DNA of 20,364 bases from NCBI GenBank assembly GCA_029261035.1, contig JAJDCD010000009.1, forward strand, positions 1-20,364. Direction: 5' to 3'. The notes under the pieces are model-generated. The model was given only the letters and a program-made list of their open reading frames with translations, searched no databases and was not told the DNA's origin. This document shows, in pieces, positions 1 through 20,364 of this stretch. Within the stretch, counting starts at the first letter, position 1. Each line of letters begins with the position of its first letter. The stretch comes from Candidatus Omnitrophota bacterium. Lineage in GTDB: Bacteria > Omnitrophota > Omnitrophia > Omnitrophales > JACROU01. The position numbers and the translations under genes were made by a program.

Positions 1-3000
1 GAAGTCTTCAAGTCTCTAGTACATTTAATCAAAGTGGCGGAACCATTGATAGTATTACCTTTGATGGAGGAGGAGCTAGTTTAACGCAAAGTGCAGGAAC
101 AATAACAGATCTTACCTTTGCCCATTCTACTGGGGATAAAAGTATTCTTTCAGACTTTACTGTCCTAGGAGATCTTACGGTTTCTAATACGGGGGGAAGC
201 AGCGATGTTTTTGGCACTGGAGTATTAAGAACAATTACAGTAGGTGGAAACTTTTTACAAAATGGAACTCGCCCTTTTGGTGACAACGAACTTAAATTAA
301 CTTTTGATGGGGACACAACTCATACGATTACTCAGACATCTGGAACCTTTGCAGCACATTTAGATTTATTAGATGCTGGAGAAACTGTAAATTTATTGAC
401 TGATTTAACGGTTACGAATCAAAGTTTTGCAATTACCTCTGCTTCAACCTTTGATGTGAGTACCCATACCTTAGATGTTCTAACTTATATTCAAACCGAT
501 GGAAGTATGGTTGTGGGTACTGGAAATGTTTTAGTTGAAAGCACATTTAATCAAAGTGGTGGAACCATTGACAAGATTACTTTTGATGCAGGAGGAGCTA
601 CTTTAACCCAAAGTGCTGGAACGATTACGGATCTTATCTTTACACATTCGAGTTCTGATAAACTTCTTCTTACAGATTTTACGGTATTAGGAGATCTTAC
701 CGCTTCTAATACAGGAAGTAGCTCAGATATTTTTGGTAATGGAGCTTTAAGAACCATTATGTTAGAAGGTGATTTCTTACAAAATGGAACGCGTCCTTTT
801 GGTAATAGTTTATTGACGCTATCTTTTACGGGTGCCGGAAGTCAAACGTTTAGTGTGAATACACCTGTTAATTTTAATGCTAATTTTGATGTGAATAAAA
901 CAGGTGGAGAAGTTACCTTTATTTCTGACTTTAATATAGAAGCAGGACAGTCACTATCTCTTACCCAAGGTTCCTTAGCACTGAATGGAAGAGTATTGAC
1001 AATGACAGGTGGAACTTTTAGTAATGATGGAACGGTTCGTCTCATTGGAACAGAAACTTTTGTTGACCTTACTCAAGATCAGAACAGCGGAACTTTTCTT
1101 TATGAAGGAAGTGATACAGGGTCCACAAGAACACTAGATGGAACAGGAATAGCAGGAATAAATAAATATTTTAACCTTACGATTGATGATACAAACGGAA
1201 CCTTAGACACATTCGAATTAGATGGAATTACCATTGGTGGAACAACGACTATAGAGAATGGGCAAGTTACCACAGCTGCTGGAACCGTAACCTCAAATGC
1301 ATTGACTGTTAATGGAGGCATGATGACCTTGGGAGGCGATTTAACATTAACAGGAAATACCACGACGTTTACATCTGGAACATTTAATGCAGGCAGTGGA
1401 ACCATTACAGAAGCTGGAGATTGGGACATTCAGGGTGGTGTGGTTAATATGGATTCATCCACATTAGATTTATCCGGTGATTTTCTGCATAGTGGTGGAA
1501 CCTTTAATGCAGGAACCGGAACAGTTAATTTGCTAGGAACGTTGCAAACAGTTTCTGCTATAGGAACAAATACCACTTTTAATAATTTAAGTAATATTGA
1601 ATTAACTGCAGCAGACACATTAACCTTTACAGCAGGAAGAAGAGTGATTGTTTCGGGAACATGGACGGCTCAAGGATTTAACACAGGTAATAAATTATCA
1701 TTGCGTAGCAGTACACCTACAACACAATGGGAAATTGATCCGCAAGGAACAAGAACAATTTCTAGTTTAGATGTCCAAGATAGTAATAATGTTAATGTTA
1801 CTGTTATTGCTCCAGGAGCTGGAAGTAGAGATTCTGGAAATAATACGAATTGGTTTTTCACGGATAATGTTACAGGAAATGTATTTAGTGACCAAGGTGT
1901 TACATCGATTGGAGCAGGAATTCAAGTAGGTGTTTCTATTAATGGAGGAGCTATTTCAACAACCACCACGAATGCCGCTGGTTTTTATGGAGTCGATGGA
2001 TTGACTTTAGTCGCTGATGATGTTGTTACCATATTTTTAGATACTACTGGATCAGAAGCGGGTGTTACGGTAACACTTTCTGATAATACAGGCCTTACTG
2101 GAATAGATGTTTATGAGGATCATTTAATTATTCGTCATGAAAATGCAGGGCCTGTTTCTGTAGCTACATTAAACACCGCAAATAATTCTGGTGATGCGGA
2201 TATAGATGCTATCTATACCATTAGTAGTTTAGATATGGCTGCTGGAACAACACTGTTTATTAATTCAGGATCGACTTTTACTCCAGGAGATACAGTAAAT
2301 GCAGTTAATGTTGTTAATCAAGGTACGATTGATATAGGAGTTAATGCATTAAATGCAACAGGAACATACACTCAAACTGCTGGAGCTCTAACAGCAACCA
2401 ACGGCTCTTTAAATATTGATGGAGATGTCACTATTAGTGCTGGAACAGTTGATTTACCATCAGGAACAGCTTCTTTTGCGGAAAATTTTACGATTACAAA
2501 TATTGGTTCTGGAACAATCGTTAATCATAATGCGGGAACAGTGGTCTTTGATTTTGGGGGAGTCCAAACAACTGTAGTTGAGATAGAAAATGCTATCTTG
2601 AACAATGTGACATTTTCTCAAAATGGTGGCTCCATTAAATTAGATAAATCATTCACAATTAGTGGAAATCAGTTAAAAGATGGAGGGGCTACTGTTGATA
2701 CGGATGCTGTAGGAATTACAATTACTCTTTTAGGTAACCATAGTCAGACAGCAGGTGGTAATTATGGAAGTGGTCAACTAACCTTAAGTATTGCTGGAGG
2801 TGTAACACAAACTTTTAGTAGAACAGCTGGTAATTTTAGACCTAACCTTCTTATTACTAATAATAGTACCTTTCAATTACAAAATGGAATGGATATGTTA
2901 GCCACAAGAACATTAACAATTAATTCTGGCAGCACTTTAGATTTAGACGGTAATGGTTGGACCATGACAGGAGTAGTTTTTACTAATAATGGAACGGTAA

Positions 3001-6000
3001 GACTTCAAGGGGGAGAATTAGTTACAGGGTTAACTCAAGATACGGGTTCTGGCACTTGGGAATATGTGGGTAATGGAGATGCCTCATCACAAACCTTTCA
3101 AGTTAAAGATTTTGGTGGAATCGATTACTTTAACTTGACCATAAACTCTACAGATGTAGGAGATATTTTTGAGCTTAATGACGCTATGGTTGTTGATGGT
3201 GATTTTCTTATTCAAGAAGGTGGTTTCACTCAACTTAGTGTGCTCACTCCACTAACTCTGAATGGAGCAAATGCATTTACATTAGATGGAGGAAGTTATA
3301 CTCAGAATAGTGGTCTGCTAACAGTTAATGGAAATATGGTAATCAACGCTGGAACCTTTACTGGATCAAATACGGGTATTTCCATTGATATTAATGCAAA
3401 TGGTCCAGCAGGCGGAGATTTTGATCAAAACGGTGGGGTGTTTACATCAACAAACGGAGTGATGAATGTTGAAGGAGATTGGGATCGAGCAGGCGGAGGA
3501 ACTTTTAATCATGGTAGTGGTTCTGTTATTTTAGATGGGTTAGGACAACAGATTCTTGGATCAACAACCTTTCTTAATCTTTCAAAATCAGTGTCAGGAG
3601 CTCAAGCTGTTGCAGACAGAACTCTCACCTTTGGTGTGGGAACCACACAGACTATTTTAGGAACCACAACCTTGCTAGGGTTTGACGTTTCGAATAACTT
3701 ATTGTTGAGAAGTTCTTCAGATGGAAATCAATGGAGCATTGATCCACAAGGAGCTCGCTCGATTAGTAGAGTCGATGTTAAAGATAGTATTAATTTAAGC
3801 GCTCCTCCAATCTTACCTCCAAACAGTGTTGATTCTGGAAATAACGTTCTTTGGTTTGGAATAAATATTTCAGGTCAAGCACTAGGCATTGCTGATGGAG
3901 AAGATATTATATTAGTTAGAGGCGGTGTTGTTGTAGACACAGTTCAAACAACGAATGGCGATGGGTCTTATAGTTTTCTGGGTGTTACTGTAGCTGCTGA
4001 TGATGGCATCTTAGTTTATATCAATGATTTTACTACAAAGGGAAATACGTTCACCATAACGTTGGATGATGCTTCAGATATCACAGGTTTAGATATTACA
4101 GCAAATAGTTTAACCACCACTCATGAATCTCTTGGCCCTGTAACGAATGCACTATTATCTTCTACCAAAGGAGCTTTGGTAGATGCTGATATTCTTTATT
4201 CTGTAACAGGTTCAGATTTAGCTTTATCTGCAGGCGTTAATTTAGCTGTTGCTAGCGGAAAAGTATTTACTCCAGCTGGAACTGTTGCTGTTGAAGATCT
4301 GGATGTTAATGGAACATTGAATATGGGTGCTAATCAGCTAACCGTTGCTGGTGATGTATTTGATGCCACAGGAGGTTCTTTTACAACTTCAGGAACTTTT
4401 GTTTTTAGTGATGCAGGTCCTGTGACTATTACAACTAATGGCTCTAATTTCAACACAGTTAATCTTACAGGGGCTGCTGCTTCATACACCTTTACGGACA
4501 ATGTTGATTTTGATGGAGACGTAACTTTAAGTCAGGCAACAGAACTTAATGCTGGTACTAACTCTTTAATATTCAATGCTGGCCTTGATCTGAATGGAAA
4601 TAATTTAACACTTACTTCTGATGATATTGATTTTCTTGGTGGTGCTAACACTGTAGTTGGGGCAGGGGAATTGACGTTGCAAACAGGAACATCCGGTGAT
4701 GACGTAGGTATTAGTGGTGGTGCAGGAACATTGCAGATTGACAGCACTGATTTAGCAGCGCTTGCTAGTTCTTTAACTCTTGTAAAATTTGCTACAACAG
4801 GTTTGGGTAGTATCGAATTAAACACTGCTACGTTTAATTCTGCTGCTGAATTTGATCGACCAACAACTATTAATGGAGATGTTAGTGCAGCAAGTCTAAG
4901 TTTTAATAGTTTTATTGCTTTGACTACGGATGTGACTCTGACTTCAACTGTAGGTCAAATATTTATATCCTCAGATATTGATGCGGATAGTAATCGAATA
5001 GATTTGGATGGAACGGGTGGAGTGGACATTAATGATATTAATAGTGGGGATGTGGTGGATGTAACAGGAGCATTCTTTACGGGTGCTGAATATGATTTAG
5101 ATACCTTAACTGTCAATGTGACTGGTTTAGTTCAATATGATCAATTAGAAGCTGGAGGCGATGTTGATATTACAGCAGGAAGTTTAGAAAACAATCAGAC
5201 AGAGGCAGATTCCTTTACAGTAGTAACCACAGGTACACAAGATCATTTCTTTAATGATATTTCTAATGACATTGATTTAACAGGAACTGACATTACGTTG
5301 GATGATGAAATGATTGCAGGTGGAAATATTACGATTGACTCTACAACACTCACTGCCAATAGCGATATTACCGGAACAGATATTGATATTACCAGTTCTG
5401 GAACACAAGAATATAACGGAGCTATTAATGGTGGAGGCACATTAACATTTACAGGCGGAGAAATTGACTTATTGGGTGGGGCAGATTCTGTAACGGGAAC
5501 AACTGTTGCCTTAGAACCAGCAACCGTAGGACAAGCTATTGTAATTGGAGGAGTCGCTGACTCTGGAGCTCCATTAGATATTACACTAACAGATATTGCA
5601 GCTCTTGCTGACGGGTTTACTTCAATAGCTATTGGGCGGACGGATGGAAGTGGAGCTGTTACAGTCAATGCTGTGACTTTTAATGATCCTGTTACGATTC
5701 AATCCCCACAAGCAGGTGGACAAATTACTGTTAATGGACAAGTGACAGGTTTAGGTAATGCGTCCATTACCTTTGATGGCCCTGGGGCTACTACTTCCTT
5801 AAATGCAAATGTTGTTACAGCAGGAAATGTTATTGATTTTAATGATGCCGTTAAGTTAGGTGCTGTAAATATTTTGTTGGACACAACAAATGGTGGAGCT
5901 GTTCCAGCAGGAGCTAATATTATATTCCAAGGCACAGTGAATGGAACAACGGCGGCTACAGAATCTCTTAATTTAAGAGCTGGAACTGGTGGAAATATTA

Positions 6001-9000
6001 ACTTTAGTGCAGTGGTTGGTGATTCTATTACTTTAGATACCATTACCTTAACGAGTGGAACATTGAACCAAGGTGCTAATGCAATTAATGCAGATGGGTT
6101 CTCACAATTGGGTGGTGCTTATCAAGGGGGTGCAGCAGATACAACATATACAGATGCATTTAGTGTTTCTGGTGGTACTTTTAATGCGCCATCAGCAAAC
6201 TTAATTGTTGAAGGTGATTTTACTATTTCAGGAACAGGAGTATTTAACCCTAATGGTGGAACAGTTACCTTAGATGGAAATACGGATTCTTCGATTGATG
6301 TTCTTACTACAGAAACCTTTAATAATTTAGTTTTCTCCAAAACATTTCTTCCAACAAGTGAAACAGTGACTATTTCCGCTGGAGATACGTTAATTGTCAC
6401 GGGTAAAGTTACCTACGAATCAGGAATAGTTGATGGCCCTGGTGCAGTAGAGGCACAGGGTGATGTGGATATGTTGTTTGAAATGGATGGTGGAACAGCT
6501 GCTCTTACGATTACAGGAGCTACTATCCATACGTTAACCAATGTTGGTGGATCCTCTTTTGATGGTGTTGTCACTATTAATGTAGGAACAGGAACAGTTA
6601 ATACAGTTACAACAGCAGGAGTAGGGGATGAAGAGTTAGACTTGGATGGAGATTTTATAATTCAAACAGGAACTTTTGTTGCTCCAGATGATACAGCAAG
6701 ATTTGGAGGGGATTTTACGGTTGCAGCAGGAGCAACTTTTAATGCAAATGGTGGTTTTGTTGAGTTTAATGGTGGTTTATTAGCAACTCCTTCTACTTAT
6801 ACGATTGATTTTAATGGACAAACAGTTACTTTTGCTGATTTAGAGTTTGATAAGAGTACAGATGAAACACTTCAAATAGCTGCGGGTAGTACGATTTTAG
6901 TTACGGGAACCGTTGATTTTCATGATGAAGTAGTTAATGGTCCTGGAACAATTACTGCAACAGGAGATGTGGAGATTGACAGTTCTGATTTTAAAGGAGG
7001 AGATGCTGCATTAACGATTTCAGGTGGAGGGGCGCACACGATTACGCTTGAAAATGGATTGGGAAGTGGTGGTGATCCAACGTCAACTCGCGGTGTTTAT
7101 TTTGGTCTATTAACCATTGATGTTGGAGTTGGAGGAACTGTGACTACCGTTGATGAGGCTCTTGGAGATAATTTTAGACACGGTGGGGATTTAATTATTA
7201 ACTCGGGAACTTTTACAGCTCCAGTGGATGCAGATTCGGTGGATGACAGTTACTTCCAAGTCGATGGTGATTTTACATTGAATGCAGGGGCAACTTTTGT
7301 TGGTGCAGAGAATTGGTCTCAATTTCAAGGAAACTTTACGATTAATGGTGGAACCTTTACTGTTCCAGCAGATGAATGGGTTGCTTTTTCAATGAAAAAT
7401 GCTGAAAACAATACCGTGGATGTTTCAGCTATAGGTACATTAAATCTAGAATACCTTTGGTTTCAAAATGAGTCAGGAGCCACAACGACTATATCTAATG
7501 GTTCAACATTACGTGCAAATGAAGATTTGTATTATGAAGGAGGTCCTGTAGATGCTCTTGGAACAGGTCTCGTTGAAGCAATTAAAAATGTAACCATTGT
7601 TGATGGTTTTGAAGGTGGAGACGCTCCTTTAACTATTCTTCCTGATCCAACCAGTAATCAGCATATTATTGATTTTGAAGAAGGAGATTCATTTGATGGA
7701 GTATTTACAGTTTCTGTAGATGCCAATGAAACAGTGATTGGAAGAACTTCTTCAGCAACTCCAGGTAATCGTTTCTTGAATTTTAATGATGATTTTATAT
7801 TAAATGACGGTACGTTTATCTATGAAAGCGGGCCAACATCTTCTGGTGATGGTGGTTCTTTCGAAGTAGAGGGAGATTTTACAATCAATGGAGGAACACT
7901 CGATGCTAATGGAGGGGTTGTTGATGCATTAGGTACATCTGGTGCTGATGTTTCTCTTGAGGTAACAGGAGGTGTTTTCAATCTAAATGGCGGAGATTTG
8001 ACTACTGCAGATGATATCTTGGTTTCCGGAGGAACATTTAATTCTGGTACTAATGCAACGATTACTGTTGGGGATGATTTTGACTCCACAGCAGGTAATG
8101 TCAATGGAGGTACCGGAACAGTTATTAATGTAAATGATGAGATGCGTCTTGATGGAGGAACGTGGGATCTTGCAGGAACCACTTTAGATAGTGATTTCTT
8201 TATTCAAGTAGATGGAGCTACATTTAATGTTAACGGAGGAACCGTTACAGTAACCGGGGGAGATGAAGACTTTATTATTGATTCAGGTACAGTAACTGTT
8301 GGAGCAGGAGGTAGTATTACCGTTGATGATGATTATATTAGTAATGGTGGTATTACTAATTTAAATGGTGGTACGATTGATGTTCTCGATGACTTCAAAC
8401 TATTTGGCGGAACCTTTAATGCAGATGGAACACTTATTGCTCGATATCATTTCCGAATGAATTCTACAGCAACCTTTAATGCATTAACAGGTTTAGTCAA
8501 CTTTTTCCCTGCATCTGGAAGTTCTCCAGATATTATCTTTAATGAGGATAATACATCTCTTGTTGTTACAGTAGATTTTAACGATGTAACATTAGATCCT
8601 GTGGATGATGATGAATTAACATCTATAGAACTCAATAACACTATGAGAGTTAATGGGACGCTTAACTTAGCAGATGGTGGTTTTGATGGTCCTGGATCTT
8701 TGATAGCTACAGAAAATATTGTGGTAAGTGATTCTTATGATGGTGGAAATGCTGTTATCACTATTTCAGGAGCTACAACGCATACATTTACGGTTACTGA
8801 CGGAAGAAGCATTAGTAATGATATTGTGATTGATGTAGGAGTAGGAACAGTGAATTATATTGGGACAGGTACTGATTTAGGAGCTGATTTTAATGGGGAC
8901 TTTACTTTAGAGTCAGGAACTTTCTTCTTTCAAACAGGACCTAGTGGAGATAATTTTGATATTGCAGGCATCTGGACTATTAATGACGGGACTTTTGATG

Positions 9001-12000
9001 TGAATGGTGGTGACATTATTCACACCGGCGCTGCAGTGATTACAGGAGGAACTCTAGACCTTGGTGGCGGAGAGGTTAATACAGATCTTGGGTTAACAAT
9101 GAGTGGAGGATTAATTGATATTGATGCTGGATTCTACTTAAACTTTGGTTTAGTTACTTTGAACAATGGTCAAATTGACTTGGGTGGTGGAGCTGGTGAA
9201 TTTGAATCTGATGATTTAACTATTAATGGAGGAGTATTTAATAGTGATGGTACTCAAACACTTGTTATTGATACCTTTAGTATGACAGGTGGAACTTATA
9301 ACGGAGTTAGTTCTGCATTAGAAGTTAGAGGTCCTTTTTCATTAACGGGTGGTACATTAAACGCAGGAACAGATGAAATATTTGTTGAAGGTTCTACTTT
9401 TACTATTGGTCCTTTAGCCACATTTAATGAAGATACCAGTAATGTAGACCTTCAAAGTTCAGGTAATATGGTTGTTGATGTGGCAATAACTGAAACATTT
9501 TATAATTTAGAATTAGATGTAAGTGATGGTTTTACGATAACTATTTCAGCAGGAGACACCCTAATTGCTACTAACCTTTTAGAGCTAGGTGATGGAGCTG
9601 TTGATGGTCCAGGAGTTATGGAAGCTCAAGGAAATGTTTTGCTTACCTCTGGGTTTGATGGAGGAGATGCAAACTTAACTATTACAGGAGCTACTACTCA
9701 TAACTTTACAATTGATGAAGGTCAATCTTTTGATGGTGATTTAGTTATTAACATAGGAGCAGGTACATTTAATGCGATTACTACGGGAACAACAGAGTTT
9801 TTTGATTTAAATGGTTCTTTAACACTTATCTCAGGAAATTTTGTTTTTCAATCTGCTGCTACAGCAACACGTTTAGAAGTTAATGATGATGCTACGATCA
9901 ATGGTGGAAGTTTTGATTCTAATGGTGGTTGGGTTTTATTCCAAAGTGACTTAATTATGAATGGTGGAAATTTTGATGCTAATGGTAGTTTAGTTGAACT
10001 TTTAGATGATATTGATTTAGATGGAGGAACCTTTGATTTGGATGGTGGTGAACTCCAAATTATGGATGACTTTAGAATGACTCTTGGAACATTTTTAGCT
10101 AATTTAGGCCAAGTTGACTTTGATGATTTTAATAATGAGGATTCCATCATTGATGTTCCAGGAACAGTAACTTTTTATGATGTAGAGTTTGATAAAGGTG
10201 CTGGTTTTACCCTCACTGTTTCAGCCGGAGATAATATTGTTATTACCAATAGCGCTAATTTCAGAACAGGATCTGTAGATGGCCCAGGAACTATAGAACT
10301 TCAAGGGGATATGACAATCCAAGCTACTTATGAAGGTGGAACAGCACCATTAGAAATTTCTGGAAACACATCTCATAATTATACAGATAACCTTGGTACT
10401 GGCTATGCAGGCGCATTGACCTTAGATATTGGTCCAATAGGTTCAATTGTTTCTAGTACTAACTTTGTTGTACCCAACACTTTAACCTTAGCTAGTGCGG
10501 CAACTATTAATGCCGGAGTCAACACAGTTTCCTTTGGTAGTACAGTAAATACGATCAATGCTGCTTTTGTTATAGAAGCAGATGAAATTAATTTTGCAGG
10601 TGGAGCTGATTCTGTTTCTGGAATAGGAACGATTACCTTAAGACCATCATCAGCAAGTACTTCTATTGGGATTGGTGGGGGAGCCGGCATCTTAGATCTT
10701 TCTGTTGCAGATATTGGTGCGATTGCAGATGGATATATTTCTATAACGATTGGTAGAACGAATGGAACAGGAGCAATTACTATTAATGCAATTACCTTTA
10801 ATGACCCTGTAACAATCCAAACTCCACAGGCGGGTGGAAGTATTGTTGTGAATGGACAAATTACGGGTTCTGGAAATGCAGCTATTTCTTTAGATGGCCC
10901 TAGTGCGACAACGACGTTGAATGCAGACATTATTACTTCAGGTACGGATATTACGATTAGTGATAGTGTTGTGATTGGTGATGGAGCCAACGTGACTATT
11001 AGTACAGGTGTTGGACTTCCAGGAGATATCTCCATTTCTGGAACAATTAATCCAACTTTGGGAGGAGGAGCTGAAGCACTTACTTTGATAGCAGGAACTT
11101 CAACCATTACTCTTGCTCAAGAGGTCGGTAATTTAGAACCTCTAGGTACTCTTACTATTGGAGAAGGTCAGTATGCTCCAACAAGTACGATTGATGTTCT
11201 TAACTACACCTTAACTTCAGGTGCTTTGGTCACTAATCCTTCGGACACGTCAATTGATGTGGGTGGAGAGTTTACCATTAATAGTGGTGCGTCATTTACA
11301 GCCCCTGCAACCAGTTCATTTACTGTTGCTGGTAATTGGAGTAATGCAGGAATCTTTATTTCTAATAATGGAACAGTAACGTTTGATGGTGTCAGTGCTC
11401 AGACATTAGATTCTGGAGGAACTGGAAATGATAATGATTTTCAAAATTTGATTGTTTCAGGATCAACAGTTCAGTTAATTTCAAATGCTGTAGAAATTGA
11501 TGGAACACTAACAATACAAGGCTCTAAGTTATTTGAATTAAATGGTCAGAATATGACTTTAAATATTTTAGATAGTCTTGGAACGTTACAACTTTTAGGT
11601 TCTGAAACTGTAAGCATAGCTACTACGGATACTAACTCAGGGCTTGTGAAATATATTGCTGCTTCAGGAACTATAAATATTCCAAGTAACTTATCTAATT
11701 ATTTTAATATTGAATTTGATTCTGATGCTTCTGGAGATGGAACAGCAACCTTTAATTTACCATCTACAGCTTTGATTGTTAATGGAGTAATGACGATTAC
11801 AGATGGGGATGTGGTTCAGAATGCTGCTGAAGCTGCAGATATTACAATTAATAACACTGGAGCAGTAGCTAATGCTTTAACAGTACTTTTCGGAGCTAGC
11901 TATTTGAATAACTTAGCAGGTGCTTCTGCTGATTTAACTTTGGGTGGAAATGTTAGTAATGGTGGAACGATAACCTTTGATGGTCAAGGTGGTTCTGGAG

Positions 12001-15000
12001 ATACGGATACAATTTTAATTCGCTCTACGAGTGCGACTCAAAGAAATTGGCAAGGTTCTGGGGCTTTTAATATTTTAGATGTAGATGCAGCAAATCAAAC
12101 AGCTGTTGGAGGAAGCCCTGCAAATATTTTTGCTTTTAGTAGTACAGATAGTGGAAGTAATGTTAATTGGCTTTTTGGTTCAGCTTCAGCTTCAGAAATT
12201 ATTGTTACTTCTACTATAGATACAAATTCAAGAGATGCTGTTATTAGTTTACGTGAGGCGTTATTACTAGCCAATGGAACGCTTTCAAGAGGAACATTAA
12301 CTCTTAACGAACAACTTAATGTTGGTGTCACCGTAGGTGCTGCTAATGCCGATTCTATAGGCTTCAATATTCTTGGTGGTGGTGTTCAAACAATTACACC
12401 AACATCTCTCCTTCCTAATATCAGCGATTCAGCTTCAACAACTATTGATGGTTATACGCAACCCGGCGCTAGTGTAAATACAAATGCAACAGGCGCAATA
12501 AATGCAGTTCTTACTATTCAAATTGATGGCTCTTCAGTAGCGTTAGGGCATGGTTTGAGTTTAAATAGTAATAATAATGTTATCAAAGGGCTTTCTATTA
12601 TTAGCACGGGTTCTAATGGTATAACCTCAAGTATTGGAACATCAGGAAACATTATCCAAGGTAACTTTATTGGTTTGAATGCAGCAGGTGGAGCAGCGGG
12701 AAATGCTAATAGCGGTATTGTTGTTCAAGGAAGTAATTACATCATTGGAACTAATGGTGATGGAGTTGATGATTCAGCGGAAAGAAATGTGATCTCAAGT
12801 AATTCGCATCAAGGAATTACATTACAAGTAGGGGATGGAAATGTTGTTGCTGGTAATTTAATTGGAACAGATCTTACGGGGACATTAGACAGAGGAAATG
12901 GACATCGAGGTATTTTGGTTATAACTGATTCAGATAACAATAGAATAGGAACGAATGGAGATGGGGTAAGTGATGTTATCGAAAGAAATATAGTTTCTGG
13001 TAATGATTTAGGAGGGGTTGGTCTTGACATCAATTCAGATAACAATACAGTCGCTGGAAATTATATTGGAACCAATTCTGCGGGCACTGCTGCAATTCGT
13101 AATGATAATCATGGAATATTTGTTATTAATAATGCAGATAATAATATTATTGGAACGAATGGAGATGGAGTTGGAGATGCGAGCGAAGGAAATCTAATTT
13201 CAGGAAATGAAGATGGTGGTGTTTTTATTCAAGACTCAAATAATAATGTGGTTGCTGGAAACCTAATAGGAACTAATGCTACTGGAACAGCTGCTGTAGG
13301 GAATGGAGATGTTGTAGGGCATGCTTTTACGGCAGCTGCAGTAACGATTACTGCAAGTGCAGGTTCTTCTAGCAATAATCGAATTGGAACCAATGGAGAT
13401 GGCGTCAGTGATGCTCTAGAGCGTAATATTATTTCTGGAAATGGAGCTACAGGTATTGAGGTCTCTGATTCGGATTCTTTAGCTTTATCTGTAGGAAATA
13501 TCATTGCCGGAAATTATATAGGAACGGATATTACGGGCCTTCTTCCAATACCTAATTATTGGGAAGGTATTGATTTATACACCTTTATTAAAGATACGGT
13601 TGTTGGGTTTGATGGTGTTGGGGATCCTACAGTTGAACGTAATGTGATTTCAGGGAATGGTTGGGCTGGAATTTATACGGGACACTGGGATACCCCAGGC
13701 TATGTTCAAAATATTATGATCAAGAGTAATTATATTGGTGTGGGTTCTGATGGAACTACAGCAATTCCAAATGGAGGAAATCCAGGAGGTGATGGAGGCG
13801 GCGGTGGAATTTTCTTCTCAGATGATTCTTTTGGAAATCTTGTGGGAGGTGCTACAACAACCGAAGGAAATATCATAGCAAATAACGTAGGCCCAGGAGT
13901 TACGGTTCTTGCCGGAGATGCGGGTGGAGGAACTGTTTACAATGATACGGATAGAAACAAGATTACACATAACAGTATATTTGATAATACTGGCTTAGCT
14001 ATTGATCTTAGTATTGATCAGAATAATTATTTGGGTGATGGGGTGACATTAAATGATTTAGGGGATGTGGATTCTGGATTTAATCCTAATGAAGGAATGA
14101 ATTTCCCAAGAGTTTTGTCTGTTCAAGCAGATGGAGTAAATATTACGATTACGGGTCGTTTAGATACAATTAGTGCTTCCACTTCTACTGTAGAAGTTTA
14201 CTTAACCAATGGATCTTTAAATGCTTCAGGTCACGGAGATCTTAAAACATTCTTAGGTGTTGCCACACCAAATAACGATAATCCAGGAGAGTGGAGTTTG
14301 GTAGTTGCCAATAGTGAACTAAATCCTGTGATTGCTACGATTGCTATTGATGTCAATGGCAATACCAGTGAACCTTCTATATATAGACAAAAGGTTGAAA
14401 CAATTACTTGGGATGGAAGTGTTTCAACCGCATGGAATATAAATGATATTGCTGCTGATTTTAATTGGCAAACAGCAGATGGGCGAGAACTCGCTCCTTC
14501 CTTGGGAGATAGTGTAGTTATTCCTAACGTGACGAATGACCCTGTATTGGGTGCTTCAGCAACGGTAAACAATTTAACCATTCAAACCAGTGCACAGTTA
14601 ACGCTTTTAGGTAATGATTTGACTGTTACAACGACATTTTCAAATGATGGAACCGTAACGCTTAGAGGAACAGAAACAGTTTCATTAACTCCAGATATTA
14701 ACTCAGGAACATTTAATTATGCGGGAGATGGTGTTGGGGGATTGACAAACTTTGCTTTGATCGGTTTCGGAGCAACGGATTATTTCAATCTGATGTTTTC
14801 CAACACAGAAATGAGTGAAGTATTTACAGCATCACAGAATATTACTGTGGCTGGAACAACAACATTCAGCAACTCTGTCACGGTTTCTGCAGGAGCAAAC
14901 AGCTTAGTATTTAATGGAAGTGTTTCTTCTGGGGTAAACAATCTTACCCTTGCAGCTGATGGCATTGATTTTCTTGGAGGAGCAAACTCAGTAGTAGGTT

Positions 15001-18000
15001 CTGGACAATTAACATTATCATCAGGAACTTCAGGAGAGGATGTTGGAATTAATGGTGGAGTGGGGACTTTACAGATTGATAGTACCGATTTAGCTGCTCT
15101 TTCTAATACATTAACATTATTAGTCTTTGATACAACAGGTTTGGGCAGTATCGAACTTAACACGACAACATTCAATACTTCCGTACAGTTCAATCGACCA
15201 ACAACTGTTAATGGAGATGTTAGTGCGCCAAGTATGTCATTTAATAGTTTTATAGAACTGACTACAGATCTGACATTAACCAGTACAGTAGGTCAGATAT
15301 TTATCTCAGGAGATATAGATGCTGATGGAAATAGAATAGACTTAGATGGAACCGGTGGTGTGAATATTAATGACATTAATAGTGGAGATGTTGTGGATGT
15401 GACGGCAGCTTTCTTCACAGGTGCCGAGTATGATTTAGACATATTGACTGTAGATGTTACCGGTTTAGTACAGTATGACCAATTAGAAGCGAGTGGTTTA
15501 GTAGATATTCAAGCAGGAAGTTTGGAAAATAATCAAACAGAATCAGAATCTTTTACAGTAGTAACCACAGGAACTCAAGATCATCAGTTCACAGATGTAG
15601 TGAATGATATTGATTTAACAGGAACAGTAATAATATTGGATGATGAAATGATAGCTGGAGGAAATCTAACAATTGATTCTACAACGTTAACAGCAAATAG
15701 TGATGTAACAGGAACAGATATAGATGTGACGAGTACTGGATTACAAGAGTATAACGGTGATATTAATGGCGGTGGAGACTTAACATTTACCGGTGGAGAA
15801 ATTGACTTTTTGGGTGGTACTAGTACGGTTACAGGCAACACAATAATTTTAGAACCAGCAACAACTTCACAGGCTGTGGTTGTTGCTGGTGTTGCTGATA
15901 GTGGAACTCCATTAGATATAACCTTAACGGATTTAGCAGCCATGGGCGTATTTAATTCGATTACTATTGGTCGAAGTGATGGTGATGGCGCTGTTACTGT
16001 AAATGCCGTAACGTTTAATGATCCTGTCACTTTTGTTACCGGAACGGGTTCCGTTATTATTAATGGACAGATAACTGGCAGTGCGGGTGTTCCGGTGACG
16101 ATTAATGCTATTAGTGGTTCTGTTACTCAGAATGCTGCAATCGTGACGACGAACGGTGCTATCTCAATTACTCAAGGAGCTGGTGATTTTATAGTAGGTG
16201 AAATTGATGCAGGAACCTCAACTTTGTCACTTACTGCTTCAAACGGAAGTATTTTGGATGATGGCAATAACATCACACAAATTAGAGGGGGTACCGTTAA
16301 TCTTACGGCAAGTGGTGCTATTGGTGTGATTGATGATTTAACGGATATTGATTTAGATATTGAGGATGGCGGAACTTTAAATGTTTCTGCAGGGACTTTG
16401 ATTGCGATTCGAGATAAGAACGTCGGGCCTAAAACATTAATTGTTGGAACTGTTTCTATCGGGGCTAATGCGACTGTGATGATTCATTCTGCTTCTAGTC
16501 TTACGACAACATCAGCGATAACAACAACGGGTAGCGGTAACCTATTCTTACTGGCTGATGCACATCAATTTGCAACTTTTGACGGTGAAGGAGTTTTGAC
16601 TTTAGGAGGTGCTGTAAATGCGGGTTCGGATCTTAGTTTGAGATCTGCCGGAAACATTATCCTTTCTTTAATTACGTTCAGCTTTACGAATGATTTCTTT
16701 GCTCTCTCAACAAACGGAAATGTAACCGTGGATGTGGCCGGCATTAATGCTGGAGATGATCTCTTGTTCAGTGCAGCTAATCAAGTGAATGTGACTGAGA
16801 GTTTAATAGCGGCCGGAGATATTACTCTTAATGGCTTTGGTTCTACCGGAAATTTAAGCATCGCACAAGGAGTTATCTTAGATGCCGGATTTGACATCGA
16901 TCTAACAGCAACTACCGGAGATATTTTGATTGATGATATTCGAGCTGGAGATGATGTGACTATTACGGCTTCTGGTGGAAGGATTGAGGAAGTCGTTGCC
17001 GATATAGGAGTGGATATTCAGTCTTTAGATAACATGACTTTGGATGGTGAGAATGGTATCGGTACTTTATCGGCTTTAGAAATCAGCGTGGGAGACAATT
17101 TGACAGCCAATGCTAATACGACCGGAGATATTCAGCTGATCGATACAAGTATTGATGGGTTGGGGAACTTTGATGCGACAACTGCCAATGGAACCATTAA
17201 TGTCATTGTGGATGAAGATCTTTGGGTGGGTACAGTTACTGCTCAGGGAGCGGGCAGTGATGTTATTTTAGAATCTAGATTTGATGATATCTATCTTGGA
17301 ACGATTAATGCTCAAGATGATGTGTTTTTAACCGCTGCTGCAGAAATTGAAGCTGGAGGTGGCGGCCCTCCACCTCCTGCAAATCCGCATATTACTGGAG
17401 ATGAAGTATTTCTTGTCGCGACGGATGGCATTGGAAAAGCACCGGGGGATATCGTGCTTACTGACATCAATGAGCTTTCTGCAACCAATACCAACATTAA
17501 CTCATTTATTCGTATTGAGGAAGAAGATGGATTGACCATTGTATCTATAATCACCGGTAATGAACAGACTATTGAAATCGATGTGAATGCTGGAGACTTA
17601 ACAGTACAGTCTATCAATGGAGGTGGGGTGGAAACGGATGTTGATTTAAATGTGGATGCAGGTAGCGTTTTTGATGATGGAAATAACAGCACGGTTATTT
17701 TAGGAGGAGGAATTGATATAACGAGTAACGGCTCAATTGGACAGAATGGAAATGAATTGGATACCGATGCCGGCGGTTTAACCCTTTCTACAGCTACTGG
17801 AGGGATTTTTATTCGGGATGCGGGTGATGTGGATGTATCTGTTAATTCTGTAGGTGGAAATGAAAATGTGGACATTGAAGCCCAGGGCAACCTTCAGCTT
17901 TTCACACCAATCACAACAACCGGAACTGGAGATATTTTATTGATAGCGGATAGTGATGGGAATGGAATCGGTAATTTTAGTACCATAGCAGCCCTTAATG

Positions 18001-20364
18001 CCGCTAGAGATTTAACGATTCAATCAGCAGGCAATCTGACACTTTCAGGTCTAACTCTTACCTTTGGAAGAAATCTCTCTCTTACTTCAACAGCAGGACA
18101 AGTCGATGTGGATCAGGTGGTCAATGGAACGGGTGATGTTACGTTAGATGGGTTTACAGATGTTACGATTGGTGCAGAATTAACAACTACCGGAAATGTT
18201 TCTATTACTACTGGAAATACGGTCACATTAAGTGCAAATATTTTAACGGATGGGGGCAATATTATATCGAACGGAAATGTTGTTCTTACTACCAATATCT
18301 TATTAGATACGGAGCAAGGAAATGATTCTGATGCTGGTGATATTGATTTAGATCAAGCTACTGTATCAGCAAATGCTGCTGGTTATGATTTAACTTTAGA
18401 TGCAGGAACTAGTGGTGGTGCCGGTGGAGAAATTAGATTATCTACGTTTAATAATATGGGTGGTGGTGAATATATTAATGACCTTACCTTGGATACAATT
18501 GGTTCTACAACCACAGCAGCAGTTGTTGTTAATGGAGATATTTCATTAGATGATGATGGGTTGGGTGACGCTGCTAGCTTTGTAGTCACTGGTGGTGGTA
18601 AATTAGCAGTGGCAGGAGATACAGTGATTACAACACAGGTAGGAAATACGGCAGGGGCTACGGGTGGTGTGATTGATCTTTCTTTTGAAGGTGTATACGC
18701 TATTGGATTAGGACAAGACTTAAGTTTGATTGCATCTAACACAGGAGTAGGCTCAACGGGTGGAGATGTCACAACAAGTTTTGTTAGTAATAATGCAGGT
18801 GCTAATGATTACTTAAATAGTTTAACGATTGATACCCGAGGTCCAGATGCGGCTAATGATGGAATTATTGGTGTTCGATCTAACATAGCTTTGGACGGTG
18901 GAGATATAACTTTCTCTGGAAAAGTTAGATTACAATTAAGTATAGAATTAGATACAGAACGTGGAAATACGCCAGGTCAAACTGCTGGTAATATTGATTT
19001 ATCTCAAGTGTCTAATTTATTTAGTCAAGGACCCGATAATACGTTAGCTCTTAGAGCAGATAATACGGCTGCTGGTGGTGTTGGTGGAAATATTCTTATT
19101 GGTGTTATTTCTGATAATGGTGGTGCTAATGATGTTCCGGCACAGTTAGACGTGACAACGGAAGGTGATGCAGGAAACCACGGAATTATTTCTTTCCATG
19201 GAGATATTCTGGTGGATGGAGCTGTTAACTTTACAGGTATTTATGAATTAAGAAACAGTGTCACAATTGATAATGAAAAAGGAAATGACAATTCATTTGT
19301 TATGACTTTTGCAAATACAGGCACCTTATCAGCCGATGTTGCAGGTCATGACTTGGTTCTTCTAACAACCACGAATGCGGCTTCGGGTGGAAATATAACC
19401 TTACCTGTCTTTGATAATGCGGGTGGCGCCTACGTCAATGACGTCACTGTCAATACTACGGCAACAACCACTGCTGGAACAATTAACTTTACTGGAGATA
19501 TTAGTCTAGATACTTTTGTAGCAGATTCTTCTAGTTTTATTGTTGTTGGGGGAGGCGATGTTGTTGTTGGCGCAAACTCAGTAAGCATTACAACAGAACA
19601 AGGGGATTCCCCTGGAATTGTTTCTGGAAGTATTGATTTGGGTGGTGGAAATATTTTTGCGAATGGGGCTGGGTTCTCATTATCTCTTGATGCTGGAAAT
19701 TCAGGGGCTGGATCAACGGGTGGAAATATAATAGGAGTTGGATTGATTGATGATAATGTGGGTGGAAATAATTTTATTAATAATTTAACGTTTGATACTG
19801 CTGGTGCTATGAATGGAACAACAACTATCTCTAATGATATAGAAGTAACCGGAACAGTTACATTTATTGGCGCTGTTCTTTTATCTTCAACGGTTTCTGT
19901 TACAGGAAATGTTAGCGTTAATGCTTCTTTAAATCTAAACACAAATGAACTTGATCTTATTGGAGATAGTATTAATTTCTTGGGTGGCGCTAATTCTGTT
20001 ACGGGTCCAGGGCAATTATTGATACAAACTCAAACAAATGGTGATGACATAGGTATTGCTGGCGGAACTGGAACTTTACAAATTGATGCAACAGATTTAG
20101 CGGCTTTAGCTAGTTCTTTGACCTTGGTTGAGTTTGATACGACAGGATTAGGTTCTATTGATGCTAATGGTTTTACTGTAAATGCACCTATTCAATTGAA
20201 CAGACCAACAACTGTCAATGGAGATATAACAGCACCAAGTATGTCCTTTAACAGTTTTATAGCACTGACTACAGATGTAACTTTAACTAGTACGGTAGGT
20301 CAGATATTTATCTCAGGAGATATTGATGCTGATGGAAATAGAATAGATTTAGATGGAACAGGTG
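1..20364 (+). CDS. Internal fragment of a giant repeat-rich surface/adhesin-like protein (5' and 3' partial)
   Basis: One frame (codons starting at 3, 6, 9...) is open across the full window, giving 6,787 complete codons and an estimated fragment mass above 650 kDa. Both ends lie outside, so signal peptide, secretion domain and C-terminal anchor cannot be judged. The product is Gly/Thr/Asp/Asn/Ile/Val-rich, acidic, without any cysteine I could find, and has no hydrophobic transmembrane run. Recognisable parts in order: repeated beta-strand modules, two carboxypeptidase-regulatory-like sandwiches, a CSLREA-type domain, a right-handed parallel beta-helix, a GNTSE-ending sandwich, a WDG...VTNDPV domain, a filamentous-haemagglutinin-like stretch and a 107-codon tandem array. 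In such families these parts form extracellular stalks and adhesins. A role in attachment or predation is inference. A structural S-layer or sheath protein is an alternative. Frame continuity is sure, the surface-protein call is strong, and the exact function is unknown. Confidence 0.95.
12..311 (+). repeat. Duplicated 100-codon unit, copy 1 (STFNQSGGTID type)
   Basis: This stretch encodes STFNQSGGTID, then SLTQSAGTITDLTF, DFTVLGDLT and FLQNGTRPFG. The same series returns in the same order at 534-833, offset by exactly 522 bases (174 codons) at both the first and last shared codon, so the copies are colinear without net indels. Synonymous differences are scattered between them. The strands alternate hydrophobic residues with Gly/Asn/Asp turns as in a beta-solenoid. 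No enzymatic motif is visible. Confidence 0.85.
534..833 (+). repeat. Duplicated 100-codon unit, copy 2
   Basis: Second copy of the unit at 12-311. It keeps STFNQSGGTID, LTQSAGTITDL, DFTVLGDLT and FLQNGTRPFG. Divergence is greatest in the hydrophilic turn (HSTGDKSILS against HSSSDKLLLT). About 220 bases of unrelated strand-turn sequence separate the copies. Copy 1 begins at the window edge, so further copies upstream are possible. Confidence 0.85.
1017..1290 (+). repeat. YFNL strand module, copy 1
   Basis: Encodes a recurring pattern: F-S-N-D-G-T-V-R-L, then a G-x-E element, L-T-Q-D-x-N-S-G-T, a Tyr-containing strand, K-Y-F-N-L-T-I and a following I-G-G-T-T-T-I strand. The same order occurs at 2979, 11562 and 14637. 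I associate this pattern with large bacterial surface proteins from memory, not from a search. It opens the composite unit that continues with the Trp/DSGNN module and the sandwich domain. Confidence 0.7.
1291..1691 (+). other. GGTFNAG-type beta-strand repeats (domain region)
   Basis: Short strand-turn units with GTFNAGSGTI, GGTFNAGTGTV and TTFNNLSNIEL, plus conserved Trp-containing strands (DWDIQGG, TWTAQG). The pattern of a strand, a Gly-Gly turn and an Asn/Ala-Gly turn is what a right-handed solenoid would show. The stretch 'GTV...G...Q...TTFNNLS' is the first of about eight such elements in the window. Confidence 0.6.
1692..1859 (+). repeat. Trp/DSGNN module, copy 1
   Basis: Encodes LRSS, then QW-x-IDPQG, I-S-x-LDV-x-DS, and closes with DSGNNTNWFF. 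The two tryptophans and the DSGNN turn recur at 3699-3860 and, more diverged, at 12009-12176. It lies between a solenoid stretch and a sandwich domain, so it may cap the solenoid. That capping role is inference. Confidence 0.75.
1860..2420 (+). other. Carboxypeptidase-regulatory-like beta-sandwich plus linker strands, copy 1
   Basis: Starts VTGNVFSDQG, followed by an I-G-A-G-I-x-V strand, TTTNAAGFYGV and DDVVTIFLD. The 'T-N-x-x-G-x-Y' turn is the usual signature of carboxypeptidase-regulatory-like / SdrD-B-like sandwiches. A conserved IRHENAGPV element around 2130-2153 and FTPGDTV around 2277 follow. The same series returns 662-663 codons later. These sandwiches are normally spacers or ligand-contact domains in extracellular proteins. 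Confidence 0.65.
2421..2978 (+). other. Beta-strand repeat linker between composite units
   Basis: Continuation of the open frame with irregular strand-turn repeats (GTVDLPSGTASF, NHNAGTVVFDFGG, FSQNGGSIKLDKSF, HSQTAGGNYGSG). No recognised domain signature is present. The amphipathic strand pattern matches neighbouring solenoid segments. Confidence 0.5.
2979..3220 (+). repeat. YFNL strand module, copy 2
   Basis: Same series as at 1017: FTNNGTVRLQGGE, GLTQDTGSGTWEYVG, DYFNLTINST and a following MVVDGDFLI strand. It begins the second composite unit, 1,962 bases after the first. Confidence 0.7.
3221..3698 (+). other. GGTFNHG-type beta-strand repeats (domain region)
   Basis: Strand-turn units including NSGLLTVNGNMVINAGTF, DFDQNGGVF, DWDRAGGGTFNHGSG and SVILDGLGQQILG-STTFLNLS. 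They occupy the same place in unit 2 as 1291-1691 in unit 1 and share the DWD element and the 'G-x-V-x-L-x-G...TTF-x-NLS' series. Confidence 0.6.
3699..3860 (+). repeat. Trp/DSGNN module, copy 2
   Basis: Encodes LLLRSS, NQWSIDPQGARSIS, VDVKDS and closes with VDSGNNVLWFG. It matches copy 1 in order and nearly in length. The closing tryptophans are 2,001 bases (667 codons) apart. A short proline-rich insert (APPILPP) precedes the DSGNN turn, where copy 1 has IAPGAGS. Confidence 0.75.
3861..4400 (+). other. Carboxypeptidase-regulatory-like beta-sandwich plus linker strands, copy 2
   Basis: Begins ISGQALGIADGEDI, then VQTTNGDGSYSF, DDGILVYIND, a TITLDDASDITGLDI strand pair, THESLGPV around 4119-4142 and FTPAGTV around 4266. 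Each element has a counterpart in copy 1. The TTNGDGSYSF turn is the clearest regulatory-like signature. It leads directly into the first FLGGANSV module. Confidence 0.65.
4551..6060 (+). repeat. FLGGANSV module, copy A (longest)
   Basis: The first half begins AGTNSLIFNAG, DFLGGANTVVG, GTLQIDSTDLAALA, TTGLGSIELN, then RPTTINGDVS, STVGQIFIS and DIDAD-x-NRIDLDGTG. The middle runs NDINSGDVVDVT, FFTGAEYDLD, VQYDQLEA, SLENNQTE, DDEMIAGGN and QEYNGAINGG. A second GGADSV half starts near 5466 and leads through ITLTDIAALADGF, IGRTDGSGAV and FNDPVTIQ to NGQVTG at 5750. A tail (NASITFDGPGATTSLNA) is shared with the partial copy at 10575. Similar modules occur, from memory, in large adhesins of cyanobacteria and other phyla. 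Confidence 0.85.
6061..6281 (+). other. Beta-strand repeat linker
   Basis: Strand-turn sequence (LNQGANAINADGFSQLGG, SVSGGTFNAPSANLIVEGDF, GVFNPNGGTVTLDGN) connecting copy A of the FLGGANSV module to the VDGPG array. It shows the same VEGDFTI and NGGTV elements as the following array. Confidence 0.5.
7887..8430 (+). repeat. Dense GGTFxxNGG short beta-strand repeats, block 1
   Basis: Consecutive short units such as NGGTLDANGG, GGVFNLNGG, SGGTFNSGT, DGGTWDLAG, ATFNVNGGTV, GGITNLNGGTI and GGTFNADG. Neighbouring Gly-Gly turns are often about 20 to 26 codons apart or multiples of this, so the period is approximate. One such unit per coil is what a right-handed solenoid would need. They fill the gap between VDGPG copies 3 and 4. 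Confidence 0.7.
8910..9380 (+). repeat. Dense GGTFxxNGG short beta-strand repeats, block 2
   Basis: Units GTFDVNGGDI, TGGTLDLGGGEV, SGGLIDIDAGF, NGQIDLGGG, NGGVFNSDG, TGGTYNGVS and TGGTLNAG lie between VDGPG copies 4 and 5. A smaller set (GGSFDSNGG, GGNFDANG, GGTFDLDGG) follows around 9906-10050 before copy 6. The pattern matches block 1. Confidence 0.7.
10461..10574 (+). other. Short strand linker before partial FLGGANSV copy
   Basis: Encodes TLTLASAATINAGVNTVSFG and adjacent strands. The 'AG-x-NT-x-x-F' element resembles the AGTNSLIF / AGANSLVF lead-in of copies A and B, so it probably belongs to the module that follows. Confidence 0.5.
10575..11190 (+). repeat. FLGGANSV module, copy D (second half and tail only)
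   Basis: Encodes INFAGGADSVSG, ADIGAIADGY, ITIGRTNGTGAITINAITF, NDPVTIQTPQAGG, VNGQITG and then NAAISLDGPSATTTLNADI. This corresponds to the second GGADSV half of copy A (from 5466) and to its tail beyond 5750. The first half and the YDQLEA middle are absent. Confidence 0.8.
11191..11561 (+). other. Beta-strand repeats with GTVTFDG...FQNL element
   Basis: Contains VGGEFTINSGASFTAP, VAGNWSNAGIFISNNG, then GTVTFDGVSAQTLDSGG followed by DFQNLIVSG and IDGTLTIQG. The NNGTVTFDG...FQNL series is the best preserved of about eight such elements spread through the protein. They probably form a turn of solenoid with a fixed outward loop. Confidence 0.6.
11562..11810 (+). repeat. YFNL strand module, copy 3
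   Basis: Encodes DSLGTLQLLGSETVSI, TDTNSGLVKYI, SNYFNIEFDSD and LIVNGVMTI, matching the order of the module at 1017 and 2979. The Tyr-Phe-Asn core is kept, with Ile replacing Leu. It is followed at 12009 by the third Trp/DSGNN module. Confidence 0.65.
11811..12008 (+). other. Strand linker
   Basis: Short linker with AADITINNTGAVANAL, LNNLAGASADLTLGG and GGTITFDGQGGSGD. It fills the place taken by longer GGTFNAG repeats in the first two composite units, so this unit is shortened. Confidence 0.5.
12009..12176 (+). repeat. Trp/DSGNN module, copy 3 (diverged)
   Basis: Encodes TILIRSTS, RNWQGSGAFNILDVDAAN and closes with TDSGSNVNWLFG. The IDPQG element is lost and DSGNN has become DSGSN, but length, tryptophan positions and the LDV strand agree with copies 1 and 2. 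The CSLREA-type domain follows, not a regulatory-like sandwich. Confidence 0.65.
12195..12362 (+). other. CSLREA-type domain
   Basis: Encodes IIVTSTIDTNSRDAVISLREALLLAN, the layout of the CSLREA / 'CTLREA' domain: an IxVTSTxDT strand, a short loop, then S-L-R-E-A-(L/I) and an ALLLAN helix. The family's usual Cys is Ile here (ISLREA), in keeping with the cysteine-free protein. In known proteins the domain commonly sits just before a parallel beta-helix, exactly as it does here, with ADSIGFNI leading into the helix. Confidence 0.8.
12363..14060 (+). other. Right-handed parallel beta-helix domain
   Basis: Opens with GGVQTITP, TIDGYTQPGAS and IQIDGSS, the usual first coils of this fold after CSLREA. 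Coils then alternate N-x-IKGLSI, GNFIG, GNLIGT, GNYIGT and ERN-x-ISGN strands. Five GTNGDG-type turns are spaced by about 67 to 78 codons. The helix ends near ITHNSIFDNTGLAIDL at 13956-14010. Coils of this type belong to the pectate-lyase-like / NosD-like fold family. I cannot identify catalytic residues, so a carbohydrate-binding or structural role is as likely as an enzymatic one. Confidence 0.82.
12744..13670 (+). repeat. IGTNGDGV / ERNxISGN beta-helix superrepeat (five copies)
   Basis: The turn starts at 12744, 12945, 13149, 13383 and 13602 (last one VGFDGVGD). Each is followed about eight residues later by ERNVISSN, ERNIVSGN, EGNLISGN, ERNIISGN or ERNVISGN. Between them sits a GNxIGTDxTG coil. 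The spacing of 201, 204, 234 and 219 bases suits three helix coils per superrepeat. The Asp-rich loop could bind a divalent cation, which is inference. Confidence 0.8.
14094..14390 (+). other. Beta-sandwich domain following the beta-helix (GNTSE-ending)
   Basis: Encodes NFPRVLSVQADGVNITITGRLD, TVEVYLTNGS, TFLGVATPN and a final ATIAIDVNGNTSEPS. The order 'NFP...L', 'V-x-G-x-L', 'TFLG', 'A-x-D-x-x-GNTSE' is the familiar sandwich that caps CSLREA / beta-helix cassettes in many bacterial surface proteins. The pairing with the two preceding domains supports the call. Confidence 0.7.
14406..14590 (+). other. WDG...VTNDPV domain
   Basis: Encodes TWDGSVSTAWNIN, DFNWQTAD, SLGDSVVIPNVTNDPVLG and TVNNLTI. 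The series of a W-x-G start, A-W-N, a further Trp, GD-x-V-x-IP and NDPV is common at the start of strand-repeat segments in large secreted proteins of Bacteroidota and candidate phyla (recalled, not searched). It starts a new solenoid section after the beta-helix cassette. Confidence 0.65.
14637..14888 (+). repeat. YFNL strand module, copy 4
   Basis: Encodes FSNDGTVTLRGTETVSLTPD, NSGTFNYAGDG, TDYFNLMFSNTE and ITVAGTTTF. The first strand is close to that of copy 1 at 1017 (FSNDGTVRL). No Trp/DSGNN module follows. The FLGGANSV copy B begins at once. Confidence 0.68.
14889..16079 (+). repeat. FLGGANSV module, copy B
   Basis: Colinear with copy A: AGANSLVFNG, DFLGGANSVVG, LQIDSTDLAAL, TTGLGSIELN, RPTTVNGDVS, STVGQIFISG, DADGNRIDLDGTG, DINSGDVVDVT, FFTGAEYDLD, QYDQLEASG, SLENNQTE, DDEMIAGGN and QEYNGDINGG, then the second half from 15804 ending INGQITG. 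The distance between the two FLGG/LLGG turns is 837 bases in both A and B. The homology stops at 16079, and the DGPGATT tail seen in A and D is missing. Confidence 0.87.
16080..18290 (+). other. Filamentous-haemagglutinin-like strand region
   Basis: Long series of irregular strands with GAISITQGAGDF, LTASNGSILDD, LSLRSAGNIIL, LIAAGDITLNG, LTATTGDILIDD, VTITASGG, NLTLSGLTLTF, TLDGFTDVTIG and TTTGNVSITTGN. The phrase type 'AG-x-D-(L/I)-x-L-x-(A/S)-x-G-x-(I/V)' is usual for filamentous haemagglutinin / large adhesin stalks. One GGGGPPPP linker lies at 17355-17378. The secretion (TPS) domain of that family is not in view. Some stretches have higher G+C than the rest of the gene. Confidence 0.65.
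17355..17378 (+). other. GGGGPPPP flexible linker
   Basis: Four glycine codons followed by four proline codons, then ANPHITGD. This is the only polyproline run I found in the window. It interrupts the strand pattern and so probably marks a hinge between two solenoid segments. Confidence 0.75.
18303..19905 (+). repeat. Five-copy tandem array with a 107-codon period
   Basis: Each unit starts with an L-D-T-E-Q-G-N type motif: LDTEQGN, ITTQVGN, LDTERGN, IDNEKGN, ITTEQGD. Most continue with GxIDL, then a Leu/Asp strand, a G-x-x-GG-x-I turn, a GGANDYxNxLTxDT segment and a G-x-I-x-F/L strand. The glycine codon of the motif falls at 18318, 18642, 18963, 19281 and 19602, spacings of 324, 321, 318 and 321 bases. 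Unit 4 has lost GxIDL (MTFAN instead). After unit 5 the sequence changes into FLGGANSV copy C. Confidence 0.85.
19911..20364 (+). repeat. FLGGANSV module, copy C (cut by window edge)
   Basis: Encodes LNLNTNELDLIGD, INFLGGANSVTG, TLQIDATDLAALASSLTL, DTTGLGSID, NRPTTVNGDITAPSMSF and STVGQIFISG, ending DADGNRIDLDGTG at the edge. Over 54 codons from RPTT to GTG, I count 50 identical residues against copy B but 18 base differences, mostly synonymous. The middle and second half are expected just beyond the window. Confidence 0.85.

Follow-up and report, generated by a model that had tools for sequence, protein, structure and literature searches.

Attachment to surfaces or to other cells is the usual role of TpsA fibers, and CdiA proteins are TpsA proteins with long fibers and a variable C terminus. 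In type Vb (two-partner) secretion, POTRA domains of the transporter TpsB bind the TPS domain of the exoprotein, and the unfolded chain then crosses the barrel and folds outside into a beta-helix, which requires no hydrolysable energy source (PMC5422565, PMC6555100). The mature fiber of FHA is 500 Å long (PMC5422565). Within the Omnitrophota, open reading frames (ORFs) longer than 20 kb have been reported from 77 of 116 Velamenicoccia genomes and 20 of 23 Omnitrophia genomes; these ORFs have few annotated domains, and their functions are obscure (PMC10066038). "Candidatus Velamenicoccus archaeovorus" encodes a giant protein of 39,678 amino acids with 42 predicted transmembrane helices (PMC10066038), and proteins of up to 85,800 amino acids are known from PVC-related clades (PMC12057145). 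Because such genes have already been published, size by itself does not make a gene of this kind new. None of the words two-partner, type V, POTRA, and Omp85 occurs in PMC10066038, and we found no assignment of Omnitrophota giant ORFs to two-partner secretion in the literature searched, the coverage of which was incomplete.

Here, we analyzed a stretch of 20,364 nucleotides (the window), which makes up the entire contig C25 of G000, a 94.8% complete genome assembled into 26 contigs totaling 2,700,877 bases. The window is an internal part of one real giant bacterial gene, and we are fairly confident that this gene encodes a giant TpsA exoprotein of the FHA/HMW1/EtpA type (type Vb, two-partner secretion) and that the window covers its middle part. 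As the first-pass annotation had stated, a single plus-strand frame starting at position 3 continues for 6,787 codons without a stop and is open at both ends; we obtained the same count. The start and stop are missing because the window is a whole contig, which reflects a limit of the contig and not a property of the gene. The five other frames contain 161 to 797 stops, and the probability of 6,787 stop-free codons, calculated from the base composition of the window, is approximately 10^-220. The GC content was 0.20 at the third codon position versus 0.49 and 0.47 at the other two, and it was lowest at the third position in 66 of 66 overlapping 600-nt blocks. Since this signal was unbroken in all blocks, there was no sign of a frameshift. 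When pairs of repeat copies were compared, both within the window and on other contigs, differences were mostly found at codon position 3 or silent sites (dN/dS = 0.11 for a pair of 1.1-kb modules beginning at 4598 and 14936, and 0.10 to 0.38 for five further pairs). The unbroken codon-position bias and the mainly silent differences between copies indicate that the frame is truly translated and under selection at the protein level. Antisense open frames of 150 to 237 amino acids also occur on the minus strand (10403 to 11116, 19430 to 20029, and others), which we attribute to strong codon bias in the sense gene.

The window contains the following features:

3 to 20363, plus strand: internal part of the giant ORF; repetitive passenger region of the predicted giant TpsA exoprotein
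18 to 281, plus strand: first window copy of a 522-nt tandem unit; the last unit of the candidate 5' contig C18 aligns nearby, in phase
540 to 803, plus strand: second window copy of the 522-nt tandem unit, with 79% nucleotide identity to the first
1313 to 1858, plus strand: module recurring in other giant ORF pieces of the genome (82% nucleotide identity to C17, 70 to 78% to C23 and C24; dN/dS 0.10)
4598 to 5695, plus strand: long module, copy 1, with 75% nucleotide identity to copy 2 (dN/dS 0.11)
7503 to 8702, plus strand: segment modeled with AlphaFold2; all-beta, aligning to right-handed beta-helices
12543 to 12956, plus strand: weak similarity to the Pfam family Beta_helix (PF13229, E = 1.2e-4, below the curated cutoff)
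14936 to 16030, plus strand: long module, copy 2, used for the repeat comparison with copy 1
19470 to 20363, plus strand: end of a repeat unit that shares 81% nucleotide identity with the end of C13, the 3,522-bp loop contig
20052 to 20364, plus strand: long module, first part of copy 3, which carries on into contig C8
20224 to 20364, plus strand: 141-bp exact overlap, identical to the right end of C8 (minus strand) and the 3' end of C13

No relatives of the long module (365 amino acids) were found in the collections of genome contigs and viral contigs that we searched. Autocorrelation revealed only weak coil periodicity, with peaks of Gly, Asn, and Asp at 20 to 21 and at 7 residues, which we did not count as evidence.

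Toward the 3' end, the gene could be followed to its stop. The last 141 bases of the window match the right end of contig C8 (minus strand) letter for letter, an overlap of the kind that would be left by cutting an assembly graph with 141-mers. Through this join, the frame of the window runs for 2,083 more codons to a TAA, giving 8,870 codons from window base 3. The shared 141-mer also closes contig C13 (3,493 bp), whose first 127 bases recur at positions 171 to 297 of the reverse complement of C8. Because its ends match the window and C8, C13 fits between them as a 3,522-bp tandem unit (exactly 1,174 codons, in frame), and with one such unit inserted there are 10,044 codons from window base 3 to the stop. 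Extension of the contig, which the first-pass annotation had suggested, therefore reached a stop on C8 but found no exact overlap with any contig at the 5' end of the window. The view that the frame belongs to one giant gene was borne out: the gene is single and continuous over at least 8,870 codons via the exact 141-bp overlap and probably comprises about 17,500.

Downstream of the stop, on the same strand, lie two genes for proteins of about 580 amino acids, in which POTRA_2 and ShlB domains were detected at E = 1e-18 to 1e-24. They are TpsB transporters of the FhaC/ShlB type, and their position suggests that they are cognate to the giant gene of the window. Farther along C8 we found small unknown genes, an IS200-like transposase, a 973-amino-acid SdrD_B/CarboxypepD_reg protein, and the start of the next giant ORF, which runs off the left end of the contig. 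The genes with coordinates are as follows:

C8:30829-32559, minus strand: TpsB gene (POTRA_2 and ShlB, Pfam), directly 3' of the stop of the giant gene
C8:29053-30810, minus strand: TpsB gene (POTRA_2 and ShlB, Pfam), downstream of the stop of the giant gene
C8:28374-28964, plus strand: IS200-like transposase (Y1_Tnp), in the region that separates the TpsB pair from the giant ORF at C8 left

The window encodes 686 kDa of protein with a pI of 4.05 and no Cys, consisting of 14% Gly, 13% Thr, 9% Asp, and 8.5% Asn. It is acidic (785 Asp and Glu versus 126 Lys and Arg), and it contains no convincing transmembrane helix, only one marginal hydrophobic stretch. Searches of the window, whole and cut, against Pfam and NCBIfam returned nothing above the cutoff; its NosD-like part had no match among PDB sequences, and the passenger lacked the Pfam hemagglutinin repeat of the type known from Bordetella-type proteins. 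We modeled the 400 amino acids encoded by 7503 to 8702 with AlphaFold2, using the paralogous repeats of the segment as the input alignment. The model was all-beta (pLDDT = 80, pTM = 0.82). In VIA-align, it matched right-handed beta-helices at Z scores of 15 to 21, the best being TibA (Z = 20.7; 3.4 Å over 260 residues), along with EtpA (Z = 18.9; 3.8 Å over 306 residues) and HMW1 (Z = 18.3; 3.5 Å over 256 residues). Foldseek returned 108 hits to the PDB for the same model, mostly beta-helices in the top rows, and none had an E value of 0.001 or less. A second segment (14400 to 16199) was also all-beta, at low confidence (pLDDT = 63). The window protein is thus likely to be a long, repetitive right-handed beta-helix, as modeled for one 400-amino-acid segment; since Foldseek alone gave no E value below 0.001, the fold is likely rather than proven.

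To place the gene within its genome, we read the ends of all 26 contigs of G000 and the small contigs in whole. In these stretches, four giant ORFs rich in Gly, Thr, Ser, Asn, and Asp have their start within a contig and remain open at its edge:

C8, left: 7,145 amino acids
C18, left: 7,494 amino acids
C18, right: 4,459 amino acids
C21, left: 2,654 amino acids

All four starts carry a hydrophobic leader, a TPS domain (PF05860, E = 2.5e-21 to 2.2e-28), and a match to TIGR01901. Another four giant ORFs are open at a contig edge and reach a stop within the contig (C8 right, C24, C15, and C3), and further internal pieces are found on C2, C7, C13, C14, C17, and C23. Repeat similarity pairs C21 with C7, C14 with C15, and C2 with C3, while C18 right may join C2, by weaker similarity and elimination. 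The TPS-giant pieces total 150,159 nt, or 5.6% of the assembly. The best reading is that G000 encodes four giant two-partner-secretion exoproteins (together about 150 kb) and that the gene of the window is one of them. The internal pieces C17 and C23, of 2,245 and 1,213 codons, have both end 141-mers in common and share their start with C24; we read them as units, either alternative or in tandem, of a different giant gene. Contigs C5 and C6 were N throughout as read.

In an EF-G tree, G000 grouped with "Candidatus Omnitrophota" (SH-aLRT = 99; one marker, with a single Omnitrophota row). This one marker, together with the reported prevalence of ORFs longer than 20 kb in that phylum (PMC10066038), agrees with the link to Omnitrophota made in the first-pass annotation. 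Across a sample of 285 genomes from the phylum, 88 had a match to the TPS domain. The longest open frames with this domain were the two of 7,494 and 7,145 amino acids in G000, followed by frames of 6,610 and 6,251 amino acids, with contig ends shortening lengths everywhere.

G000 also contains a second class of giant ORFs, of 2,000 to 5,900 amino acids and more, which are charged rather than Gly/Thr rich, and several of which have similar C termini. C11 carries SNF2 and DUF488 domains, and C9 resembles another in-frame repeat loop. Members of this class are the following:

C21:137122-154845, plus strand: charged giant ORF
C21:121362-130628, plus strand: charged giant ORF
C15:416-7351, plus strand: charged giant ORF
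C3:33442-41646, minus strand: charged giant ORF
C3:26002-32517, minus strand: charged giant ORF
C16/C9/C3 junction: charged giant ORF
C11, whole contig: charged giant ORF

Which of the giant starts belongs to the window was judged from repeats, composition, and gene order. The final repeat of the 522-nt family in the C18 left ORF (minus strand) aligns to window positions 60 to 479 with 75% nucleotide and 70% amino acid identity. From the phase of this alignment, the gap between C18 and the window would be 33 nt, which keeps the frame, if the 522-nt units are consecutive. The GC content at third codon positions is 0.207 in the C18 left ORF versus 0.203 in the window. An alternative with the same mechanism would have the window be the passenger of the giant start at the left end of C8. 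The 522-nt repeat family is found at the end of that ORF as well, where amino acid identity to the first unit of the window is 57%, about the same as the 59% shared by the two copies in the window. However, repeat identity and third-position GC favor C18, and C8 already holds the 3' end of the window's gene, so that the giant genes would have to form a tandem array or a 60-kb circle. Synteny also disfavors a start on C8. In G001, a relative from the same family, a giant ORF is followed by a TpsB gene, a PGI-like gene, and two further genes, which we take to be RibBA and RibD. In G000, the C24 giant ORF is followed by the PGI-like gene with its neighbors, and the gene of the window by a TpsB gene orthologous to that of G001 (54%). 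The simplest contig order would be C8 and then C24, and this order would use up the start at C8 left and leave C18 for the window. On the strength of repeat phase and similarity, composition, synteny, and elimination, we regard the C18 left giant ORF as the probable 5' part of the gene, and a start on C8 as unlikely. The giant gene of G001 is itself split by overlapping frames (C27:58616-61078 and 61048-72435, minus strand) near an RCC1-like stretch, probably because of a frameshift introduced by sequencing or assembly. The window does not include the N terminus and has no detectable TPS domain. A signal peptide or secretion domain at the true N terminus had been named beforehand as something to look for, and the candidate 5' contig C18 carries both: the C18 left start has a hydrophobic leader and a TPS domain (PF05860, E = 2.2e-28), carries an NPNG motif (VNPNGITF), and matches EtpA (8vba, 2e-35) and HMW1 (2odl, 1e-26). 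The other three starts carry the variants VNTAG, VNTDG, and INNNG of this motif. With C18 as its start, the full protein would comprise about 16,360 amino acids without the C13 unit and about 17,540 with one.

Other kinds of explanation were also considered. A giant surface protein could use another export route, such as type I secretion (as in RTX adhesins), a type Va autotransporter, or membrane anchoring as in "Ca. Velamenicoccus." The window alone has no export signal, and 42 transmembrane helices are predicted in the published giant protein of that organism (PMC10066038). Yet the window has no convincing transmembrane helix, the last 558 amino acids of the gene product match no beta-barrel, RTX, or anchor family in Pfam, TpsB genes lie directly downstream, and a TPS domain is present on every giant Gly/Thr/Asn-rich start that we found, making another route improbable. 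The type Va reading was rejected for want of a beta-barrel family in those 558 amino acids. Like the autotransporter adhesins TibA and antigen 43, the protein has a predicted beta-helix passenger, with TibA the closest structure by VIA-align; unlike them, no beta-barrel was found in the same chain, and transport would presumably fall to the separate TpsB. A fiber that presents a C-terminal toxin to neighboring cells, as in the contact-dependent inhibition protein CdiA, would likewise combine a TpsA fiber with a TpsB, and for the C-terminal 203 amino acids no relative was found in 57 other genomes. Unlike in CdiA, the last 558 amino acids had no match to a PT-VENN, toxin, or immunity family (E ≤ 0.01), and the adjacent gene encodes TpsB rather than a small immunity protein. 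Having compared the C terminus by sequence only, we rejected the CdiA reading for want of such a match and give it a similarly low probability. Finally, the contig could be chimeric or a collapsed repeat, with a long frame that is accidental. The assembly is fragmented, and such assemblies break at repeats. Nevertheless, the repeat unit is divisible by three, and similar giant pieces occur on a dozen other contigs, with more distant ones in G001. An artifact, which we rejected on the purifying selection between copies and the codon-position signal that is unbroken in all blocks, is thus very improbable.

The giant TpsA exoprotein that we favor resembles FHA, HMW1, EtpA, and HxuA in the signal peptide, TPS domain, and NPNG motif of its presumed N terminus, in its repetitive, predicted beta-helix passenger, and in the adjoining TpsB of the ShlB/FhaC type. 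It differs from well-studied TpsA proteins in being several times longer (8,870 codons as a minimum and a probable length of about 17,500 amino acids), in being very acidic across the window, and in having duplicated modules of up to about 1 kb in place of any Pfam hemagglutinin repeat. With the giant ORFs of Omnitrophota (>20 kb), it shares the phylum (by one marker), the size class, the scarcity of annotated domains, and a proposed role at the surface. Unlike the Velamenicoccus giant with its 42 transmembrane helices, however, the window has none of note, and its presumed start carries a TPS domain.

For the gene of the window, we infer the start assignment, secretion itself, the length of the fiber, and an adhesive role. 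A Sec signal peptide would bring the giant chain into the periplasm, where the POTRA domains of the FhaC/ShlB-type TpsB encoded just downstream would bind the N-terminal TPS domain. The unfolded chain would then thread through TpsB and fold outside, turn by turn, into a right-handed beta-helix fiber, to which the window would supply about 6,800 residues, or about 150 nm on the FHA scale. In evolution, the fiber would lengthen by tandem duplication of modules under protein-level selection. Scaled from FHA, the whole protein might span nearly 400 nm. We lean slightly toward a broader reading, in which about 150 kb (5.6% of the genome) is given to four giant TPS fibers, and in which this one, of about 17,500 amino acids, 1.7 MDa, and 400 nm, would be several times the size of well-studied TpsA proteins, built by tandem module duplication, and possibly among the longest chains moved through an Omp85-type pore without hydrolysable energy.

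Contig ends, gene neighbors, and N termini thus link the giant set of one genome to a defined export route, that of a TPS-exported beta-helix fiber. The first-pass annotation had proposed no mechanism; assignment to two-partner secretion comes from the present analysis. Because an ORF with a TPS domain was found in 88 of the 285 genomes of the phylum, this route may explain part of the giant genes, not all. It also raises a physical question, namely, by what means an Omp85-type pore that uses no nucleotide lets through a chain of about 17,000 residues. By analogy with known TpsA fibers, the role of the protein would likely be contact with or adhesion to other cells or surfaces, perhaps including prey, and such attachment fits the host-dependent or predatory lifestyles that have been proposed for Omnitrophota (PMC10066038).
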